Source of the DNA: Bacilli bacterium | Lineage (GTDB): Bacteria; Bacillota_I; Bacilli_A; RF39; UBA660 | Direction: 5' to 3' | Assembly: GCA_022801735.1 (NCBI GenBank) | Contig: JAAWSW010000004.1 | Location: forward strand, 1 to 39,107 | DNA: 39,107 bases | Part shown: piece by piece, positions 2,453 to 26,256 of the stretch | How positions within the stretch are numbered: the first letter of the stretch is position 1 | Layout of the letters: every line of letters begins with the position of its first letter | Translations under genes and position numbers: made by a program | The notes under the pieces: generated by a model | Databases searched by the model: none | Told to the model about the DNA's origin: nothing | What the model saw: only the letters and a program-made list of their open reading frames with translations

Positions 2453-2515
2453 CCAATTTCAAATAAAATTATAACAAATAAGCATATATGTGTCAAAATT
2501 AATAAGTTTGTTTTA

Positions 2516-3490
2516 TTATCTGCTTTTAACCTTTTGCATGCCTTTTTTTACTTTACCAATAATAGTTTGACCAGTTTTACGCATTCCAACTGTTTCACGA
2601 CATCTAGAAGCAAGTTCGATACTACTATGTAAATCAATCTCTTTAAAAAATCTTCTAATAGTTTGAGCAACCTTTTTTCTATCGTTAAGTTCCTTTGGAA
2701 TCACATTATATAAATAATTTCTTAGGCAACTAGGTAATTCATCAATTTGCTGTTTTAATGCTTCTTCATCCTGTGATTTTCTATAAACTAGTCCTTCAGG
2801 CCCTTTTTCACCTTCGCACCAATCAACATAAAATTCTGGCAAAGATAAATAAGTTTGCTCAAAAAAGTCATATGAACCTTCTAAAATGTTAGGAATTTTA
2901 TTAGGATCTTCACAATGAACGAGCCTTCTAAAATCACCTAAATATGATAAACTAACAATCGTTTCCAAAAGTTCCTGTGAATTTAAAGAATCTGATTCAT
3001 GCATAAGTAAAGCCGCTCTTGCTGCTGATTTATAATTAAGTCTCATTAATGCAGGTAATACGCCATCACTATTATCAACAATTAAAGTTGTTGGCTTTTG
3101 AAAACGCCCTGCTAACGAAAAACATGACCAATTTTTTAAATCACCATATAATAATCTTTTATCAACTACCATAAGTTTATATTCATGGTTACCAAAGGTT
3201 GCAAAAAAACACCCAAGTGATTCTGGAAAACTCGCTGAATGACTTTGTTTTTCTATTTCTGCAATATCAATTAAATTTTTCCAACCCGCTTCCCTATACA
3301 TGCTAGGATTTTGAAGAAGATTTTTTGCATGCCACAAAGATGGATTATCAACCGAAATAATCAAATCCATAGATTTTTCCTCATCTATCATACTATCTTG
3401 TTCAAAATATCCACTGCCATATGCAGTTACAGAATTAACTTCCGGTAAAACACTAATTAATTCTTGAGTTTCTTCTTGTATACTTTTCAT
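2516..3490 (-). CDS. Tam41/Mmp37-like nucleotidyltransferase (putative CDP-diacylglycerol synthase), copy 2
   Basis: AYGSGYFEQ...MDLIISVDNPSLWHAKNLLQNPSMY and LLYGDLKNWSCFSLAGRFQKP resemble Tam41/Mmp37; paralogous to the adjacent ORF. Confidence 0.75.
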   Translation of the reverse strand: MKSIQEETQELISVLPEVNSVTAYGSGYFEQDSMIDEEKSMDLIISVDNPSLWHAKNLLQNPSMYREAGWKNLIDIAEIEKQSHSASFPESLGCFFATFGNHEYKLMVVDKRLLYGDLKNWSCFSLAGRFQKPTTLIVDNSDGVLPALMRLNYKSAARAALLMHESDSLNSQELLETIVSLSYLGDFRRLVHCEDPNKIPNILEGSYDFFEQTYLSLPEFYVDWCEGEKGPEGLVYRKSQDEEALKQQIDELPSCLRNYLYNVIPKELNDRKKVAQTIRRFFKEIDLHSSIELASRCRETVGMRKTGQTIIGKVKKGMQKVKSR

Positions 3491-3505
3491 AATATTCCCC
3501 CTGTA

Positions 3506-4375
3506 CTACTTCCCTTTTTTACGCTTTAATTTTTGTGCTACATATTTGATAGATTTAATAGGTCCAGTTGTTAATAATCCTTTAACAGTTTGTGACATAC
3601 TTTGATTTCTATTCTTGTTAACCAAAAACTGTCTTATACCATCACTTATAGTCCCTTTATAATCCATCAAATACTTTTGCATATCATCAGGTAATGTTTT
3701 AATATCCTCTTCTTCTACTACTACATTACCCCGTTTGAATTTCAATTCCTTCCCATATGTATCATGATAAAAATCAAATCTTCCCTTTACTATATTTAAA
3801 ACTTTATCAGGATTCTCTGCAATCCCCATTCTTGTATCACCAAGATAAGAAAGGCCTGCTAAAATAGTATAAAAATACTCTTCATCATATTCACCTTTCC
3901 CTAGCAACAATTTCGAACTAAGTAAACCAGCATGTCTGTTATATTCAATAGCAGACTCTATTTCCTTTGGCGCCTTTACAACTAAAATAGGTTTCTGCAT
4001 TCTACCAGCCATATAAAAGGTTTCCCAATTTTTTAAATCTGCTAAAAAGTCATCTTTTTCAATTGTTCCAATCTTATACTCTTGACCATTGAATGCTATA
4101 TATGTCATATAAGTTATTTTTCCACCTTTTCTCATATACCTTCTAGAAGCAAATTTAAAGAATAACTTACCTGAAAAAGAATAATCACGAGGATTTAATT
4201 TGATATTTTCTTTATGCCACTGCTTTAAATTATTTACTACTACAATAAGGTCAATTTGTGGTTTTCTATTCTCCTGACCATATTGTACGTTAATCCCAGA
4301 ACCATAACCAATAACTGCTACTGTTTCTGGTCTATTATCCATAAATTTCAAAATTTCTTCTTCTGGTTTCACCAT
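3506..4375 (-). CDS. Tam41/Mmp37-like nucleotidyltransferase (putative CDP-diacylglycerol synthase), copy 1
   Basis: GYGSGINVQYGQ...IDLIVVVNNLKQWHKENIKLNPRDYS and DFLADLKNWETFYMAGRMQKPI; same architecture as 2516..3490. Confidence 0.72.
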   Translation of the reverse strand: MVKPEEEILKFMDNRPETVAVIGYGSGINVQYGQENRKPQIDLIVVVNNLKQWHKENIKLNPRDYSFSGKLFFKFASRRYMRKGGKITYMTYIAFNGQEYKIGTIEKDDFLADLKNWETFYMAGRMQKPILVVKAPKEIESAIEYNRHAGLLSSKLLLGKGEYDEEYFYTILAGLSYLGDTRMGIAENPDKVLNIVKGRFDFYHDTYGKELKFKRGNVVVEEEDIKTLPDDMQKYLMDYKGTISDGIRQFLVNKNRNQSMSQTVKGLLTTGPIKSIKYVAQKLKRKKGK

Positions 4376-4762: not shown

Positions 4763-4932
4763 TTTTTTAGAATTCCTGACCCCTCTGCATGCAAAAAGTT
4801 CATCACATTTTTGTTAGAAAATATAATGAAACAATAATATAACTAACTTTTATATATTTCCCTCCCATTTTTTTCTAAATTAATGTATAATATAAAAAAT
4901 AGGAGTGATTGGATGAATTCGTTGTGGGCTGT

Positions 4933-5685
4933 ATGTTGTATAATATTGTGATTTGTGATGATAATTTAAATGATTTAAATATAATTACAGAAAAAATAAG
5001 TAATTATTTTGATCAGCAAAAAAATATATATTTTAAAATTCATTCATTTAATGACTATAACAATAAATTTATTGACTTTATTTATAATAATAGATTAACT
5101 AATCTAATTTATTTATTGGACATTGAAACTCCTAGTGGAGATGGATTTGATATAGCGAGAACCATAAAACGATTCGATGCCAATATTCCAATTATTTATA
5201 TAACTGGCCACCATGAAAAGCACATTAATAAAGCACTTAAAAGTTGCGATATGGATGGCTATATAAATAAATTTAATAATTTAGAAAATGAGTTAATAGA
5301 AAAATTTGATAAAATTTTAGCTGAAAAAGGTAAAAAATACATATTTCATATCAAAGGTAATAATGTCACATATATTTTAAATGTTAAAAATATTAATTGT
5401 TTTACTACTGATATTGACAGAAAAAACCAAATAAGAATAATAGGAAATTATTATCCAAATATACATTTAAGCATAAGATCTTTATATATACAGTTAGATA
5501 GTCGCTTTATAAAAACACACCAATCTTGTATTGTAAATTTAGATAATGTCAAAGAATTTGATATAAAAAACAAAATAATATATTTTAAAGATAAAAGCCA
5601 TACAGATTTAATTTCTCGTAACTTCTTTAAAAAGAATAAAGAATGGTTATTGGAACACTATTCGGACAAAATTATTTTTAAATAA
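4933..5685 (+). CDS. AgrA-like response regulator with receiver and LytTR DNA-binding domains (orphan)
   Basis: IVICDDN...YLLDIETPSGDGFDIAR...ITGHHEKH receiver and FIKTHQSCIVNLDNVKEF LytTR motif. Track ORF starts at a TTG (4909); ATG at 4933 is the likelier start. Confidence 0.88.
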   Translation: MLYNIVICDDNLNDLNIITEKISNYFDQQKNIYFKIHSFNDYNNKFIDFIYNNRLTNLIYLLDIETPSGDGFDIARTIKRFDANIPIIYITGHHEKHINKALKSCDMDGYINKFNNLENELIEKFDKILAEKGKKYIFHIKGNNVTYILNVKNINCFTTDIDRKNQIRIIGNYYPNIHLSIRSLYIQLDSRFIKTHQSCIVNLDNVKEFDIKNKIIYFKDKSHTDLISRNFFKKNKEWLLEHYSDKIIFK

Positions 5686-13417: not shown

Positions 13418-13589
13418 GATATTCACCTCATCTCTAATATTCAAATACATCCATACTATTTAACTTTATGAAATAAATAAAAGTAAAATGATAAAATATC
13501 AAATTTATAAATTATTTGGGTAATTCATTTACACCCTTTTACGCGCCCCAGCATATGTTATATTGAGAATAAATGAAGGGGTGGATTAT

Positions 13590-14036
13590 ATGTGTAATAA
13601 CAATAACAATTCAAATGAATGTAGATGCATTTCTGAAATCTTAACAGTTATCAACATTTTACAAGATAATGCAGAATGTAATGATGCATGTTTAGATACA
13701 TGCGATCGTGGTTTCTTAGGATGTTCAGTATCTACATTAGGTTGTAACACAAGACCAGTAGTATTATATACTTGCTGCGGAAATGGTACACCATGGTCAA
13801 TGCCAACAACTAAAGAAGACGTTGTTTGTGGTACACCAGGTGTAACATGCTCAAACGTATTTAGAGTAGAAAAAGTAGATGGATGCTGTGCTACCTTTAG
13901 AGTACTTGCTCCAAATCCTGACACTACAGAAGTTGACACTATACCATATGTTGCAACAAATAGTTTCTTTACAATGAATCTAAATTGTGTTTGTGCATTA
14001 AGATGTTTACAAGACACACACGTAGAATGTGTATAA
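13590..14036 (+). CDS. Spore coat protein, CotY/CotZ family
   Basis: Cys-rich CNNNNNSNECRCISEILTVINILQDNAE...GFLGC...CCGNGTPWSMP...CATFRVL; SD GAAGGGGTGG before ATG 13590. Confidence 0.85.
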   Translation: MCNNNNNSNECRCISEILTVINILQDNAECNDACLDTCDRGFLGCSVSTLGCNTRPVVLYTCCGNGTPWSMPTTKEDVVCGTPGVTCSNVFRVEKVDGCCATFRVLAPNPDTTEVDTIPYVATNSFFTMNLNCVCALRCLQDTHVECV

Positions 14037-19675: not shown

Positions 19676-22168
19676 CTACTTTCCACAACATTGCTTATAC
19701 TTTTTACCAGAGCCACATGGGCACTTATCATTACGACCAACCTTTTGAATTCTCTTTGGTTGTCTTTTTTTCAATTTATTAGGATCTTCCACTGCATTAC
19801 CTTTAATTACTTGTTCTCTTTCAGTATTTTGTCTTACTTCAGCATGTAATAAAAATCTAGTAACATCGGTATCAATAGTATCTAATAAATTATCAAACAT
19901 TTCGTAACCTTCAGCAGTATAAGCTCGAAGTGGATTTTCTTGTGCATAACCTCTAAGACCAATACCTTCACGTAATAAACTCATTTCATTAATATGATCC
20001 ATCCAGTGAGTATCTATTACTTTAAGTGTAACTGCCTTTTCAAATTCATCGCGAATTTCAGTAGGAATTTCAGAAGTTCTCTTATCGTATTCCTTAACAA
20101 CCTCATTATAAATAGTCTCAGTTAAATTATCAGCATCTAATTCCTCTAATTCTCTCACTTCAAGTGAATCTGATAATAAATTTTCATTAACTGATTCTAA
20201 AATTTCACTTACATCTAAACCAGTTAATGTCCCTTCTGGTCCCAGATGGTCCTTAACAGAAACCTCAATGTGGTCATAAAAACTCTTTAAAACATCATCG
20301 TGAATAGAATCACTATCTAAAATTTTATTACGTCTATCATAAATAATACCACGTTGATTATTTAAAACATCATCATATTCAAGTAAATTCTTACGTGTAT
20401 CAAAGTTATTACCCTCAACACGTTTTTGTGCAGATTCAATAGATCTAGATAAAGATTTACTTCTTATATTCATTTCTCCATCAAAACCAAGTCTTTGAAG
20501 CATTGCTTTCGCACTATCAGTCCCAAAACGAACCATAAGTTCATCTTCAAAAGAAACATAGAATTGAGTCATTCCAGGGTCACCTTGACGCCCAGAACGT
20601 CCTCTTAATTGGTTATCAATACGCCTAGATTCATGTCTTTCAGTTCCAAGAACACATAATCCACCAAGTTCCTTAACGCCTTCACCTAATTTAATATCTG
20701 TACCACGTCCAGCCATATTAGTTGCAATTGTAACTGCGCCCTTTTGACCTGCTTTTGCAATAATTTCAGCCTCACGTGCATTATTCTTCGCATTTAAAAC
20801 CTCATGAGGAATACGTTCCTTAGTAAGCATGCTACTAATAAGTTCACTATTTTCAACCGCAATTGTACCCACTAAAACAGGTTGACCAAGTTCATGTCTT
20901 CTTTTTATTTCTTTAACAATAGCCTTATATTTACCTGAAGATACAGCAAATATTAAATCTCCTAAATCCTCACGAATAACAGGTTTATTAGTAGGAATAG
21001 TAATTACATACATATTATAAATATCTCTAAATTCTTCTTCTTCTGTTTTTGCAGTTCCTGTCATACCAGCAAGTTTATTATACATTCTAAATAAATTTTG
21101 GAATGTAATAGTTGCTAAAGTCTTAGTTTCTTCATTAATCTGAACACCTTCTTTAGCCTCAATCGCTTGATGTAACCCTTCAGAAAAACTACGACCAGGC
21201 ATAAGTCTACCTGTAAATTGGTCAACAATCACAACTTGGCCATCTTGAACAACATAATCAAAATCACGTTTCATACTATAATTAGCCCTTAAAGCCTGAT
21301 TAATAAAATGAACTAAAGAAGTATGTTCAAGGTCATATAAATTTTTTAAATTAAAATAACTTTCAGCACTCTTCATTCCAGTAGCATCTAAAGATACTTG
21401 TTTAGTTTTTTCGTCATATATATATCCGTCATTTTCTTTTAAACCCTTAACAAATTTATCTGCCTGAATATATAAATTGGCAGATTTCATAGAACCACCA
21501 GAAATAATAAGTGGTGTTCTGGCCTCATCAATTAAAACAGAATCAACCTCATCTATAATAACAAAATTAAGCGGTCTTTGAACACGGTCCTCTGACTTAA
21601 CAACCATGTTATCACGTAAATAATCAAAACCTATTTCATTATTAGTTGAATACATGATATCGCAGTTATAAACATCTCTTTTTTCTTTAGCATTAAATTC
21701 ACGGTAATTAACACCAACAGTTAAACCTAAAAATTCATAGATTTGTCCCATCCATCCAGCATCACGTCCCGCTAAATATTCATTAACAGTTATGATGTGA
21801 ACACCATCACCAGTTAATGCATTTGCATACGCAGGTAAAACAGAAGTTAAAGTTTTTCCTTCACCAGTCTTCATTTCGGCAATATTACCATAATGAATAG
21901 CAAGACCGCCTATTAACTGTACATAAAATGGTTTTTGTTCTAAAACCCTCCATGCTGCCTCTCTAGCAACCGCAAAAGCCTCAACTAAAATATCCTCTAA
22001 AGTTTCACCATTTGCTAATCTTTCTTTAAATTCTTTTGTTTTATTTTTTAATTCATCATCAGATAATTTCCCCATTGACTCATCTAATGATTCTATTTCA
22101 TTTGCAATCGCTTTAAAACGTTCTAATTCTTTATATTCATGATCAAAAATTTTTTTCAAAAAACTCAT
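19676..22168 (-). CDS. secA: Preprotein translocase ATPase SecA
   Basis: AEMKTGEGKTLTSVLPAYANAL, IDEVDSVLIDEARTPLIISG, GRGTDIKLG, C-terminal zinc motif CPCGSGKKYKQCCG. Confidence 0.99.
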   Translation of the reverse strand: MSFLKKIFDHEYKELERFKAIANEIESLDESMGKLSDDELKNKTKEFKERLANGETLEDILVEAFAVAREAAWRVLEQKPFYVQLIGGLAIHYGNIAEMKTGEGKTLTSVLPAYANALTGDGVHIITVNEYLAGRDAGWMGQIYEFLGLTVGVNYREFNAKEKRDVYNCDIMYSTNNEIGFDYLRDNMVVKSEDRVQRPLNFVIIDEVDSVLIDEARTPLIISGGSMKSANLYIQADKFVKGLKENDGYIYDEKTKQVSLDATGMKSAESYFNLKNLYDLEHTSLVHFINQALRANYSMKRDFDYVVQDGQVVIVDQFTGRLMPGRSFSEGLHQAIEAKEGVQINEETKTLATITFQNLFRMYNKLAGMTGTAKTEEEEFRDIYNMYVITIPTNKPVIREDLGDLIFAVSSGKYKAIVKEIKRRHELGQPVLVGTIAVENSELISSMLTKERIPHEVLNAKNNAREAEIIAKAGQKGAVTIATNMAGRGTDIKLGEGVKELGGLCVLGTERHESRRIDNQLRGRSGRQGDPGMTQFYVSFEDELMVRFGTDSAKAMLQRLGFDGEMNIRSKSLSRSIESAQKRVEGNNFDTRKNLLEYDDVLNNQRGIIYDRRNKILDSDSIHDDVLKSFYDHIEVSVKDHLGPEGTLTGLDVSEILESVNENLLSDSLEVRELEELDADNLTETIYNEVVKEYDKRTSEIPTEIRDEFEKAVTLKVIDTHWMDHINEMSLLREGIGLRGYAQENPLRAYTAEGYEMFDNLLDTIDTDVTRFLLHAEVRQNTEREQVIKGNAVEDPNKLKKRQPKRIQKVGRNDKCPCGSGKKYKQCCGK

Positions 22169-22236
22169 ATCATCAGGTCCTTTCATATATAACTTAATTT
22201 TACCAAAAAACCATTAAAATTAACAGTACTAGAAGA

Positions 22237-22258
22237 AAAAAAGACTTAAAAGTCTTAT
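22237..22258 (-). terminator. Terminator hairpin between hpf and secA
   Basis: AAGACTT-aa-AAGTCTT with flanking A/T tracts. Confidence 0.6.
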
Positions 22259-22788
22259 TTTTCTTTAATAATTCCGTAGTTACCATCTTTACGCATATAA
22301 ATAACTTCAACTTCACCATTTTTTGAATTTCTAAAAATAAAGAAAGAATGGTCAATCAAATTCATTTGTAAAATTGCTTCATCTTCACTCATTGGTTTTA
22401 GTTCTACTTCTTTACGCTTAACAATTTTAGTCTTATCTTTTTCTTCCTTAGGAATTTCAAAATCTAATACTAATTCAGCATATTTTTCCTTAGTTCCTTT
22501 TTTACTCATACGAGTTTTATTTTTTCTTATTTGTCTTTCTAATTTATCTAAAACAAGGTCAATAGCAGCAAATGGATCTTTATGACCCTCTTCAGCACGT
22601 AAAATCATCTTTTTAGCAGGAATTGTCACTTCTACAACTTGATTAACACCATCAGGTCTAATAACAACACTAGCCTCTAAATTTTCAGGTTTATCAAAAT
22701 ATTTATCAAGTTTACTAAGTTTGCTTTCGACATAAGATTTAATGTCACTTGTAACCTTAAATTTCTTTCCGTGTATTCTATATTCCAT
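22255..22788 (-). CDS. hpf: Ribosome hibernation promoting factor (long form)
   Basis: YRIHGKKFKVTSDIKSYVESKLSKLDKYF; C-terminal MSEDEAILQMNLIDHSFFIFRNSKNGEVEVIYMRKDGNYGIIK. Confidence 0.96.
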   Translation of the reverse strand: MEYRIHGKKFKVTSDIKSYVESKLSKLDKYFDKPENLEASVVIRPDGVNQVVEVTIPAKKMILRAEEGHKDPFAAIDLVLDKLERQIRKNKTRMSKKGTKEKYAELVLDFEIPKEEKDKTKIVKRKEVELKPMSEDEAILQMNLIDHSFFIFRNSKNGEVEVIYMRKDGNYGIIKEK

Positions 22789-22891: not shown

Positions 22892-23104
22892 TTATACTAA
22901 GGCAGTCTTAATTTCAACTACGTTTTTAGCCTGAAGTCCTTTGTCAGTTCTAACTAATTCGAACTCAACATATTGACCTTCCACTAGTGTTTTGTAGCCA
23001 TCTGTAAGTATTGATGAATAATGTACGAAAATATCTTCATGTTCATTATATTCGATGAAACCGAAGCCCTTTTCATTGTTAAACCATTTAACTTTACCTC
23101 TCAT
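22892..23104 (-). CDS. Cold-shock protein CspA family
   Basis: [30 protein letters not shown]. Confidence 0.97.
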
Positions 23105-23341
23105 GCTTACATCTCCCTTCTAATTAAATTCCTTACAACCTTACTATACACCTAAATTGCCCTACTTGTAGCAAATTCTGAAATACAAAATCCGACAAAA
23201 TTTGCAAAATAGGAAATACCAATGTTGTAGGTAATTTGTATTTTACTATAAAAAGTCCATCTTGTTTCAAAACTTGCGTCAAGGTATCATTTTCGTGCAT
23301 GAATGATTCAAAGTGTCGCAAGTAATAACACATCGGCTATC

Positions 23342-23372
23342 ATTCACACAGGCTCCACCCATGATTCACACA
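23342..23372. promoter_or_regulatory. Candidate LytTR/AgrA-type tandem binding site upstream of agrB
   Basis: ATTCACACA repeated exactly at 23342 and 23364 (9 bp, 13-bp spacer, 22-bp period), 67 bp before the agrB start. Confidence 0.5.
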
Positions 23373-23438
23373 AAAATACGACACAATATGACAAAAATTG
23401 ATAACATAGAGGTGCAATTATAGAAAGCAGTTGATTTT

Positions 23439-24038
23439 ATGAAAGAATTATTTGTTGGCACTTCTATTGATATAATAAAAAAACAATGTCCCGAGTATAG
23501 TAATATAAAACTAGAAGAGATAAAATATGGATTAGCCAGTTTATATTTAACAATTTCTAAAACAATTGTTATTGGTACTATGGCATATATTTTAGGGATT
23601 TTAACAGAATTAATTATTTTTACTATAATATACAACCTACTAAGAATGACATCATTTGGTTTGCATGCGACCAAAAGTTGGATATGTTTATTATCTTCAT
23701 CAATAATTTTCATGGGATGCCCTTATCTATGTTATATAGTAACCATCCCTATATTGCTCAAATTTATTATTGGAATAGTTGGAGTAATATTAATATTTAA
23801 AAACAGTCCTGCTGATACTAAAAAGAAGCCAATTATAAATCCTAAAAGGAGAATGGTTTATAAATTAATATCAACACTGACTGCCACTATATTTGTAATA
23901 CTATCATTAACTATATCTGATAACTTTTTATCTAATAGTTTTATATTTTCTATCATATTACAAAATATTATGATATCTAAAATAACCTATAAACTATTTG
24001 GATTACCTTATGATAATTATAAAAATTATCAATTATAA
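23439..24038 (+). CDS. agrB: AgrB-type accessory gene regulator / AIP processing endopeptidase
   Basis: Multi-TM protein with RMTSFGLHATKSWIC (conserved His...Cys catalytic pair context), KKKPIINPKRR. Confidence 0.9.
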   Translation: MKELFVGTSIDIIKKQCPEYSNIKLEEIKYGLASLYLTISKTIVIGTMAYILGILTELIIFTIIYNLLRMTSFGLHATKSWICLLSSSIIFMGCPYLCYIVTIPILLKFIIGIVGVILIFKNSPADTKKKPIINPKRRMVYKLISTLTATIFVILSLTISDNFLSNSFIFSIILQNIMISKITYKLFGLPYDNYKNYQL

Positions 24039-24070
24039 AATTTAAATAAAAGTAAGAAGGGAGTAAGTAC

Positions 24071-24190
24071 ATGTCATTTATAGCAGCAATACTTGCTAAT
24101 TTAGGTGGTTTATTTGCTAACATAGGAAGCCAAATGTGTGGATTTTGGTGGTATGATGAAGAAGAAACACCAAAAAGTTTAATAAAATAA
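24071..24190 (+). CDS. agrD: AgrD-like autoinducing pro-peptide (39 aa)
   Basis: MSFIAAILANLGGLFANIGSQMCGFWWYDEEETPKSLIK: amphipathic leader, single Cys with aromatic core, acidic tail DEEETPKSL; SD AGAAGGGAG; directly after agrB; absent from the ORF track. Confidence 0.88.
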   Translation: MSFIAAILANLGGLFANIGSQMCGFWWYDEEETPKSLIK

Positions 24191-24224
24191 CATACAATCA
24201 AATAACAAACGAATAACAAACAAA

Positions 24225-24258
24225 AAAATGTAGAACGAGTAAATTCTACATTTTTATT
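24225..24258. terminator. Bidirectional terminator between convergent agrBD and agrCA
   Basis: AAAATGTAGAA-cgagtaaa-TTCTACATTTT with T-run on + and A-run on the other side. Confidence 0.8.
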
Positions 24259-25553
24259 TTTAATCTTTGTGTAAACATATCTCTACAAATCTCTTTTTCA
24301 TTTTCCAAACTAGAATCACCTCTAATTATTTCATCAACTAAGGATAATCCATAACCATGGCCTTTTCCTTTTGTTGTATAACCCTTATTACCAATCTTAT
24401 CTACGGCAAGATTACCAGAATAATTATTAGATATATCAATACATAAATAACCATCCATATTATATAACTCAACTGTAATAATTTGTTTCTTTAATTTTTC
24501 AACTTCCTCAATGGAATTATCTAAAAATACTCCCATTATTTTACAAATATTAAGCATTGTTCCATCATCTAAATTAATCAAATCAGATGTTTTTACATCT
24601 CTTGAAATTTCAAGTGCATACTTAATTTTCATTTCTTTCATCTTACATAATTTAGAATAAATAATTGAACGAAGTCCTCCTTCAGGAATCTTTTCTGTTT
24701 TCTTAAATATACCTTCATTATCTTTAGATTTATTATCGATAAGTTTATCTATATAATTAATTGTAGTTTTATCTTCTGACTTTATCATATTTCTAATTAT
24801 TAATAATTGATTTTTATTTTCATGATTAGTAACTCTATATTTATCCATCATAGTTTCATGTTCACGCAAACTAGATAGACTAGTTGCATATTTATTACTT
24901 ACTTTTCTATAATTTTCTCTTACATTAGAAAGTCTTAAAATAACAAAAACATAAAGAATTATTAAAATAGTATTACAAGTTAAAATCACTATAGGTGGTA
25001 AATCAATATATGTCATCACCATAAATAAACTTGCTAAAATAACAGTTATAACAAAATTCAAAACTAAATTATTACTTTTAAGGTTGCCTGCCAATTTATA
25101 TAATACACCATATATCTTATATGGTATTGGTGTTTTTAAAGATAAAAATGCCAATACAGGTACACCAAGATTAATTACTAACATACCTAATAAATTATGA
25201 TTTACATTATCAGGGTTTGATTCAATAAATGTAAATGTTATTACAACCAAAATCAATTCACAAATCATAGCAATAAACTCTGATACTACGACTGTTAAGA
25301 ATGCTTTCTCAACATTTCTAAATAACCAATAACACAATACAAATAGTATTAATATCACTAAAAATATTTTCAAAAATTGTGGCAAATAAAAATTAACTAT
25401 AGTACTACCTAAAGTGGCTAATATTACACCAAGGTAAATTTTATAATTTTTAAAATCTATTTTAATATTTAATAATTTATGCCAACAATTAACCATAAAC
25501 ATAGCCAATACTGAAGTACCCACTATATACACAATCAAAATTTCTAAATCCAT
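24246..25553 (-). CDS. agrC: AgrC-like sensor histidine kinase (HPK10 type)
   Basis: Polytopic N-terminus, TNHENKNQLLIIRNMI phosphoacceptor region, FLDNSIEEVEK and GKGHGYGLSLV ATPase motifs. Confidence 0.9.
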   Translation of the reverse strand: MDLEILIVYIVGTSVLAMFMVNCWHKLLNIKIDFKNYKIYLGVILATLGSTIVNFYLPQFLKIFLVILILFVLCYWLFRNVEKAFLTVVVSEFIAMICELILVVITFTFIESNPDNVNHNLLGMLVINLGVPVLAFLSLKTPIPYKIYGVLYKLAGNLKSNNLVLNFVITVILASLFMVMTYIDLPPIVILTCNTILIILYVFVILRLSNVRENYRKVSNKYATSLSSLREHETMMDKYRVTNHENKNQLLIIRNMIKSEDKTTINYIDKLIDNKSKDNEGIFKKTEKIPEGGLRSIIYSKLCKMKEMKIKYALEISRDVKTSDLINLDDGTMLNICKIMGVFLDNSIEEVEKLKKQIITVELYNMDGYLCIDISNNYSGNLAVDKIGNKGYTTKGKGHGYGLSLVDEIIRGDSSLENEKEICRDMFTQRLKIKM

Positions 25554-25554
25554 A

Positions 25555-26256
25555 TTATATCAACTCTCCCTCAAATCTTGTAGATACTAGATCTATTTGT
25601 TCACCAGTATCAAACATTATAATTTTTTTATTCTTATTAAACCTAACCACTCTTTTTCTATTAACTACACATGCCCTATGTGTTTTTATAAAAGATGGAT
25701 TAAGTGATTTCGTTATTTCATTTAAACTTTTATTCAATGTAAATTCTGCATAATCAGTTTTAATTATACATTTTCTCTCCATACTTTCTTTAACAATATA
25801 TAAAATATCGTCTAAAGCAATTGTATATATTGTTCCGCAATCTTTAACTCTAAGCATTTTTCTTACCTTTAACATTTGTAATGCCTTATCTATAGCCAAT
25901 GATAATTTAATATCAGTATTATCAAATTTATTAATAAATGTTAAAAATGAAAGTTGATTTTTAGAAACTGAATCGCTAAGTTCTTGATGCCCTGTTAAAA
26001 ATATAATTACACTGTCCACATCTTCCTTTCTTATCATTCGAGCAATATCCACACCAGAACCATTTGGAAGTTCAATATCCAGTATATATACTTTAAAAGA
26101 CTCATTATTATTTACCATATTTATAATATTTTGATTATAATCATCAAATTCATGAATATGATATTCAAAATCATTTTTCATCATATAACTAGTGATAATA
26201 GAGGCAATCTTATGCCTATAACCTTGGTTATCTTCACAAATAATAAAATTTATCAT
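25555..26256 (-). CDS. agrA: AgrA-like LytTR response regulator
   Basis: FIICEDNQGYR...YILDIELPNGSGVDIARMIR...FIKTHRACVVNRKRVVRFN. Confidence 0.92.
   Translation of the reverse strand: MINFIICEDNQGYRHKIASIITSYMMKNDFEYHIHEFDDYNQNIINMVNNNESFKVYILDIELPNGSGVDIARMIRKEDVDSVIIFLTGHQELSDSVSKNQLSFLTFINKFDNTDIKLSLAIDKALQMLKVRKMLRVKDCGTIYTIALDDILYIVKESMERKCIIKTDYAEFTLNKSLNEITKSLNPSFIKTHRACVVNRKRVVRFNKNKKIIMFDTGEQIDLVSTRFEGELI

Follow-up and report, generated by a model that had tools for sequence, protein, structure and literature searches.

The 39,107-nucleotide window analysed here, contig 29 of the 101 that make up a 1.24-Mb metagenome-assembled genome, carries a complete agr quorum-sensing locus in which the signal genes (agrBD) and the sensor genes (agrCA) face each other. 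Comparative sequence analysis makes it likely that this is a working convergent agr system, with AgrA driving agrBD and a divergent promoter directed toward the cold-shock gene csp, and with agrCA placed outside the loop. In Staphylococcus aureus the four genes run together as one co-directional agrBDCA operon, every one of them under feedback, the P3 promoter makes RNAIII, and the autoinducing peptide (AIP) has a ring of five residues. The named relatives closest to the source genome are gut assemblies labelled uncultured Tenericutes, Firmicutes, Bacilli or Erysipelotrichaceae, and the family probably belongs to an RF39-like order in GTDB terms.

Genes of the locus and the hairpin between its units

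The locus and its syntenic neighbours are arranged as follows.
19676..22186, minus strand: secA, syntenic neighbour (NCBIfam and synteny)
22255..22788, minus strand: hpf, ribosome hibernation-promoting factor (TIGR00741), syntenic neighbour
22892..23104, minus strand: csp, cold-shock RNA chaperone of 70 aa (NCBIfam cold-shock models)
23439..24038, plus strand: agrB, membrane protease of 199 aa (PF04647, 105 bits; cut-off 23)
24071..24190, plus strand: agrD, pro-signal of 39 aa, MSFIAAILANLGGLFANIGSQMCGFWWYDEEETPKSLIK (TIGR04223, 23.8 bits; cut-off 19)
24224..24262, either strand: hairpin with a T-run on both strands, a putative shared bidirectional terminator (stem 24224-24235/24244-24255)
24246..25553, minus strand: agrC, membrane sensor kinase of 435 aa (GHKL domain PF14501, 51 bits)
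25555..26256, minus strand: agrA, receiver and LytTR response regulator of 233 aa (PF00072 and PF04397, both over their cut-offs)

An AgrB-type endopeptidase, an AgrD precursor, an AgrC-type GHKL sensor and an AgrA-type receiver with LytTR domain are thus all present and intact, and domain searches bear out each member of the complete locus proposed in the original prediction, as the open reading frames do its strand assignments (agrB and a 39-aa agrD on the plus strand, agrC and agrA on the minus strand). The LHATKSWIC motif of AgrB carries the His and Cys that are invariant in 141/141 loci of the family, and from its sequence AgrB would both process and export AgrD. AgrC matches the S. aureus AgrC kinase structures 6e52 and 4bxi by sequence, scores well below the staphylococcal AgrC equivalog cut-off, and belongs to a set in which the His and the N-box Asn are invariant (109/109 loci). 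For AgrA the top NCBIfam match is AgrA itself, but far below the equivalog cut-offs; its phospho-Asp is invariant in 105/105 loci.

The source genome encodes two more AgrA-like receiver and LytTR regulators that have no adjoining AgrC-type kinase, at 4909-5685 (plus strand) of the window and on another contig (G000:C95; L176 4075-4791, minus strand). Most family genomes have a single LytTR gene as the norm, and the two additional regulators may use AgrC or its operators jointly. Elsewhere in the window, 13563-14036 (plus strand) encodes a Cys-rich protein of 157 aa that by eye resembles spore-coat proteins of the CotY/CotZ type, in a genome of 1.2 Mb.

Only 1 bp separates agrC from agrA, and 55 bp lie between the agrD stop (24190) and the agrC stop (24246), the distance first proposed. 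The two facing units look to be separate, as had been suggested, with a bidirectional hairpin shared between them whose right arm sits in the final codons of agrC. It folds on the plus strand with -10.8 kcal/mol (z -3.1) and on the minus strand with -12.7 (z -4.2); an automated terminator scan, which needs at least three G-C pairs, did not call it. A terminator-like hairpin, with an A-run before and a T-run after, occurs in 90 of 117 agrD-agrC gaps where shuffled sequences predict 2.7, and the hairpin claimed over the agrC stop is thereby confirmed. The same recurrence bears on the proposal that convergent read-through could add antisense control, in which agrBD or agrCA transcription running on through the opposing unit would tune expression. 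Such control would gain from 3' ends so close together, and it too predicts that the orientation be kept; against this, insulation is what a well-folding, conserved hairpin with T-runs on both strands predicts, and its presence argues that read-through is unlikely. We hold an antisense role for the facing order to be quite improbable, and the preferred reading is that the hairpin would act as a bidirectional terminator that ends both the agrBD and the agrCA unit.

The facing layout across the family and the class

AgrB was found in 129 of the 193 family genomes; flanks were retrieved for nearly all matches, and the genes in them were located with purpose-built profiles. Among the 141 distinct family loci so defined, 108 have both agrC and agrA convergent with agrB, 13 have a convergent agrC followed by the end of the contig, and two have a convergent agrC without agrA. 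A further 16 lie on contigs that stop within 0.8 kb after agrB, one has a divergent second copy in the opposite order, and one has nothing there. The layout is therefore convergent in 123 of 124 assessable loci, which supplies the survey of related genomes called for at the outset and, with the hairpin that recurs alongside it, excludes both chance and misassembly as the source of the facing order. Family loci nearly always adjoin csp-hpf-secA, with csp next to agrB in 129 of 138. Outside the family, in a sample confined to the same class, to which the order and phylum samples added no families from beyond it, every agrB linked to a kinase or regulator is co-directional with it, except at one locus where agrA alone is reversed.

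The convergent layout is probably ancestral to this family of small-genome uncultured gut Bacilli. When trees were used to ask for a single inversion, AgrA split the family from the outgroups (0.96), and the AgrB and AgrC trees were not cleanly resolved. A phage origin was considered and set aside: AgrB has no match in phage records, and the AgrA matches there are weak. A literature search covering mostly non-subscription journals turned up nothing published about agr in these bacteria and no report of facing agrBD/agrCA units.

Several loci depart from the common plan. Eleven (L070, L078, L088, L098, L120, L126, L133, L144, L148, L157 and L162) have two full agrC genes in tandem before agrA, a receptor duplication that perhaps serves to sense a second signal. 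At L226 (3967-6833; G021:C1) agrBD is gone, and csp, agrC, agrA and a relic of an agrB-type operator are kept; this may be a listener that no longer produces a signal. L072 has, between agrC and agrA (2499-3773, minus strand), a membrane protein whose core is AgrB-like: its HMKNASQC places His and Cys at the spacing seen in AgrB. Proteins of this type, 412-427 aa long with a helix-turn-helix-like C-terminal region, are also found at L227 (7670-8932), L229 (6710-7945) and G470:C1:45476-45790.

The predicted signal and its receptor

All 117 family AgrDs follow one plan, that of an amphipathic leader, a macrocycle core closed on Cys, Ser or Thr, and an acidic tail. Six residues run from the Cys to the acidic cleavage motif in 99 of the 109 AgrDs with a core Cys call, a few of the scripted core calls (L087, L088, L114) being wrong, and in the ten calls lacking Cys, Ser or Thr takes its place. 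Cleavage by AgrB immediately ahead of the acidic pair would give rings of six residues. For the AgrD of the window the predicted macrocycle is CGFWWY (six residues), or possibly CGFWW (five).

The core sequences are nearly all different among the family loci. Between close relatives the AgrD core is 0.49 identical, as compared with 0.71 and 0.93 for its flanks, and the sensor half of AgrC is 0.31 identical as compared with 0.58 for the kinase half; fast change in both the core and the sensor half fits signal-receptor specificity. Contig ends also accumulate here, with 17 within 400 bp past the agrB stop versus about 2-3 per 400 bp elsewhere, a pattern that a mixture of signal types among the strains of a single gut would predict. 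A second pile-up of contig ends, 22 at 3.2-4.0 kb upstream of agrB, lies near the end of secA.

These rates also bear on whether the two units belong together at all, or whether AgrC and AgrA answer some other ligand and adjoin agrBD incidentally. Scores of AgrC and AgrA far below the equivalog cut-offs, the loss of agrBD with retention of agrCA in G021, and the two further AgrA-like regulators of the source genome would all suit incidental adjacency. It is nonetheless opposed by adjacency in 123/124 loci, by the fastest evolution falling on precisely the AgrC sensor half and the AgrD core, and by an operator-like site upstream of agrB, so that we give it only a slim chance. A cognate pair, in which AgrC would sense the AIP and phosphorylate AgrA, is the reading carried forward.

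Operator-like repeats, putative divergent promoters and probable feedback

Between csp and agrB lie two operator-like pairs of direct repeats and two promoter-like boxes.
23240..23245, minus strand: -10-like TAAAAT of a leftward (P3-like) promoter, at a family-fixed offset; start expected near 23233
23274..23306, plus strand: upstream operator-like pair TTGCGTCAAGGT/GTGCATGAATGA at a conserved position, repeating every 21 bp and read functionally to the left, toward csp
23340..23373, minus strand: promoter-proximal operator-like pair TTGTGTGAATCA/CTGTGTGAATGA, 22-bp period
23400..23407, plus strand: -10-like GATAACAT of the agrB promoter, with no good -35; start expected near 23414

The locus was originally drawn from position 23342; what begins at this base is an operator-like direct repeat (23340-23373) and not agrB. 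On the plus strand the proximal pair reads ATTCACACA N13 ATTCACACA, facing agrB; this had been a candidate for the entire operator, which in fact comprises two pairs, the proximal one being that directed at agrB. When the whole genome was searched with a relaxed consensus, the exact matches were the proximal pair and one other, over the Shine-Dalgarno and start region of uvrB, which was rejected as chance. The upstream pair is the top-scoring pair of the window (16.7, against 11.9 for the runner-up).

Across the family the repeats were sought in two ways. The half-site profile WTGTCTRAAAWG started from a seed chosen by eye and was then trained on agrB promoters, which makes its counts partly circular; it finds a pair upstream of agrB in 61 of 139 loci (control 2.5). 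A test by lag assumes no profile and is free of that circularity: 56/139 loci have ten-base direct repeats spaced at lag 21 in front of agrB, where other lags give 14.8 +/- 4.0 (z 10). In front of agrA lag-21 repeats are weakly raised (21/104 loci, z 2.3), and the profile finds nothing beyond its control there (5/104, control 2.8), though a differing AgrA site could escape a profile trained on agrB promoters. The family's plus-strand pair is centred about 148 bp before agrB and the pair of opposite orientation about 80 bp before it, at a distance fixed to the agrB start (SD 10 bp) and not to csp (SD 41). Only around half of the loci yield an upstream pair with the profile, and subclades in which no pair is detected may use another site; CGACA repeats in those loci were examined and gave no consistent alternative operator. 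A search for a wider regulon in the 193 genomes with a stricter consensus returned 25 matches versus 18 for a reversed control, nothing clear.

With the loci aligned on the upstream pair, a TATAAT peak appears on the plus strand at the agrB promoter (40/61 loci) and another on the minus strand at a single leftward offset (50/61). Under a fixed definition the leftward box lies 27-29 bp from the pair in 63 of 66 loci, other offsets giving 11.0 +/- 3.5 (maximum 21). The window's own two -10 boxes are weak, and that of agrB was placed by position from the family peak. The pair centres are about 54 and 58 bp from the predicted starts that they face. The AgrA of S. aureus binds direct repeats whose centres lie near -60 at both P2 and P3 (PMC4227749), and the match in spacing suggests that the family keeps a P2/P3-like divergent arrangement despite the turned agrCA. 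We infer that AgrA binds the paired repeats between csp and agrB.

The leader from the leftward promoter to csp has a median length of about 119 nt, contains a terminator in only 3/62 loci, and in the family alignment has no conserved columns once past the promoter; read most simply, the transcript continues into csp. Whether such an AgrA-dependent leftward transcript does so stands, on this evidence, at about an even chance. The competing view is that the leftward promoter makes a stand-alone RNAIII-like RNA or serves another gene, with csp a bystander. It draws on the RNA made by P3 of S. aureus, on a promoter-like -10 box of csp's own about 40 bp before its start, which may leave csp little dependent on the leftward RNA, and on L277, the sole locus with the pair and without an adjacent csp, where an ORF of 77 aa, possibly an accessory output gene, lies 254-490 bp left of agrB between the leftward promoter and csp. 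It is countered by the 59/62 leaders without a terminator, by the lack of conserved leader columns outside the promoter, and by the constancy of csp beside agrB, 65 of the 129 loci with an adjoining csp having the pair as against 1 of the 9 others (Fisher p 0.02, uncorrected for relatedness). We regard the bystander view as rather unlikely. An Rfam search at the gathering threshold gave no RNAIII match, though a diverged RNA could escape such a search. The relic at L226 was tried as a csp operator kept without agrBD; its site faces agrB and so is no evidence for csp.

The original prediction held that the positive feedback of the single operon must be rewired. A LytTR-type operator, found at a fixed distance upstream of agrB in about half of the family and not enriched upstream of agrA, suggests that this applies to one half only: feedback onto agrBD looks kept, and sensor production looks uncoupled. 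Probably, then, feedback on signal synthesis persists and that on the sensor is lost; with no operator detectable at agrCA, the sensor level would lie outside AIP feedback and the positive loop would act on the signal only. In the mechanism proposed, AgrB would cut and cyclise AgrD into the AIP, chemistry suggested by homology and the invariant catalytic residues. Phosphorylated AgrA would activate agrBD from the agrB-facing pair and, from the pair that faces csp, whose placement matches that at S. aureus P2/P3, the divergent promoter, whose transcript probably runs into csp. That quorum sensing thus reaches csp, and perhaps hpf and secA, through a divergent AgrA promoter that replaces RNAIII, with autoinduction limited to the signal genes since an inversion took the sensor genes off the AgrA promoter, is a tentative proposal that we rate somewhat below an even chance.

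All four protein families are shared with the S. aureus system, as are, by sequence in about half of the loci, paired direct repeats near -60 of two divergent promoters and, by inference, the divergent promoters themselves and feedback on agrBD. The differences are that agrCA faces agrBD (123/124 loci) in place of a single operon, with no operator found upstream of agrCA, that csp stands in the place of RNAIII, and that six residues run from Cys to the cleavage motif as opposed to a five-residue ring. In Clostridium acetobutylicum agrBD and agrCA are separate operons, six-membered AIP rings are predicted, a synthetic peptide is active, and no RNAIII was found (PMC10301443). The family resembles it in the separate units and, as a rule, in the six residues; in C. 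acetobutylicum, unlike here, the order is written agrBD, agrCA, CA_C0082, apparently co-directional, and the output gene CA_C0082 is downstream of agrCA (PMC10301443). Separation of the operons is therefore not new in itself; the facing orientation is. Clostridioides difficile agr1 (agrBD only) and agr2 (agrACDB) also depart from agrBDCA in gene content or order, and in the portions of the reports consulted neither is described as facing agrBD/agrCA units (PMC8534292, PMC3754575).

The system is of a known type, and what would be new is the possible csp output: if the csp-facing promoter works as proposed, agr gains an RNA-chaperone output without RNAIII. The inversion would uncouple receptor production from signal autoinduction, a natural test of loop wiring in a quorum switch. 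Peptide quorum sensing emerges as a standard part of these small-genome uncultured gut bacteria, with hundreds of diverse predicted signals.
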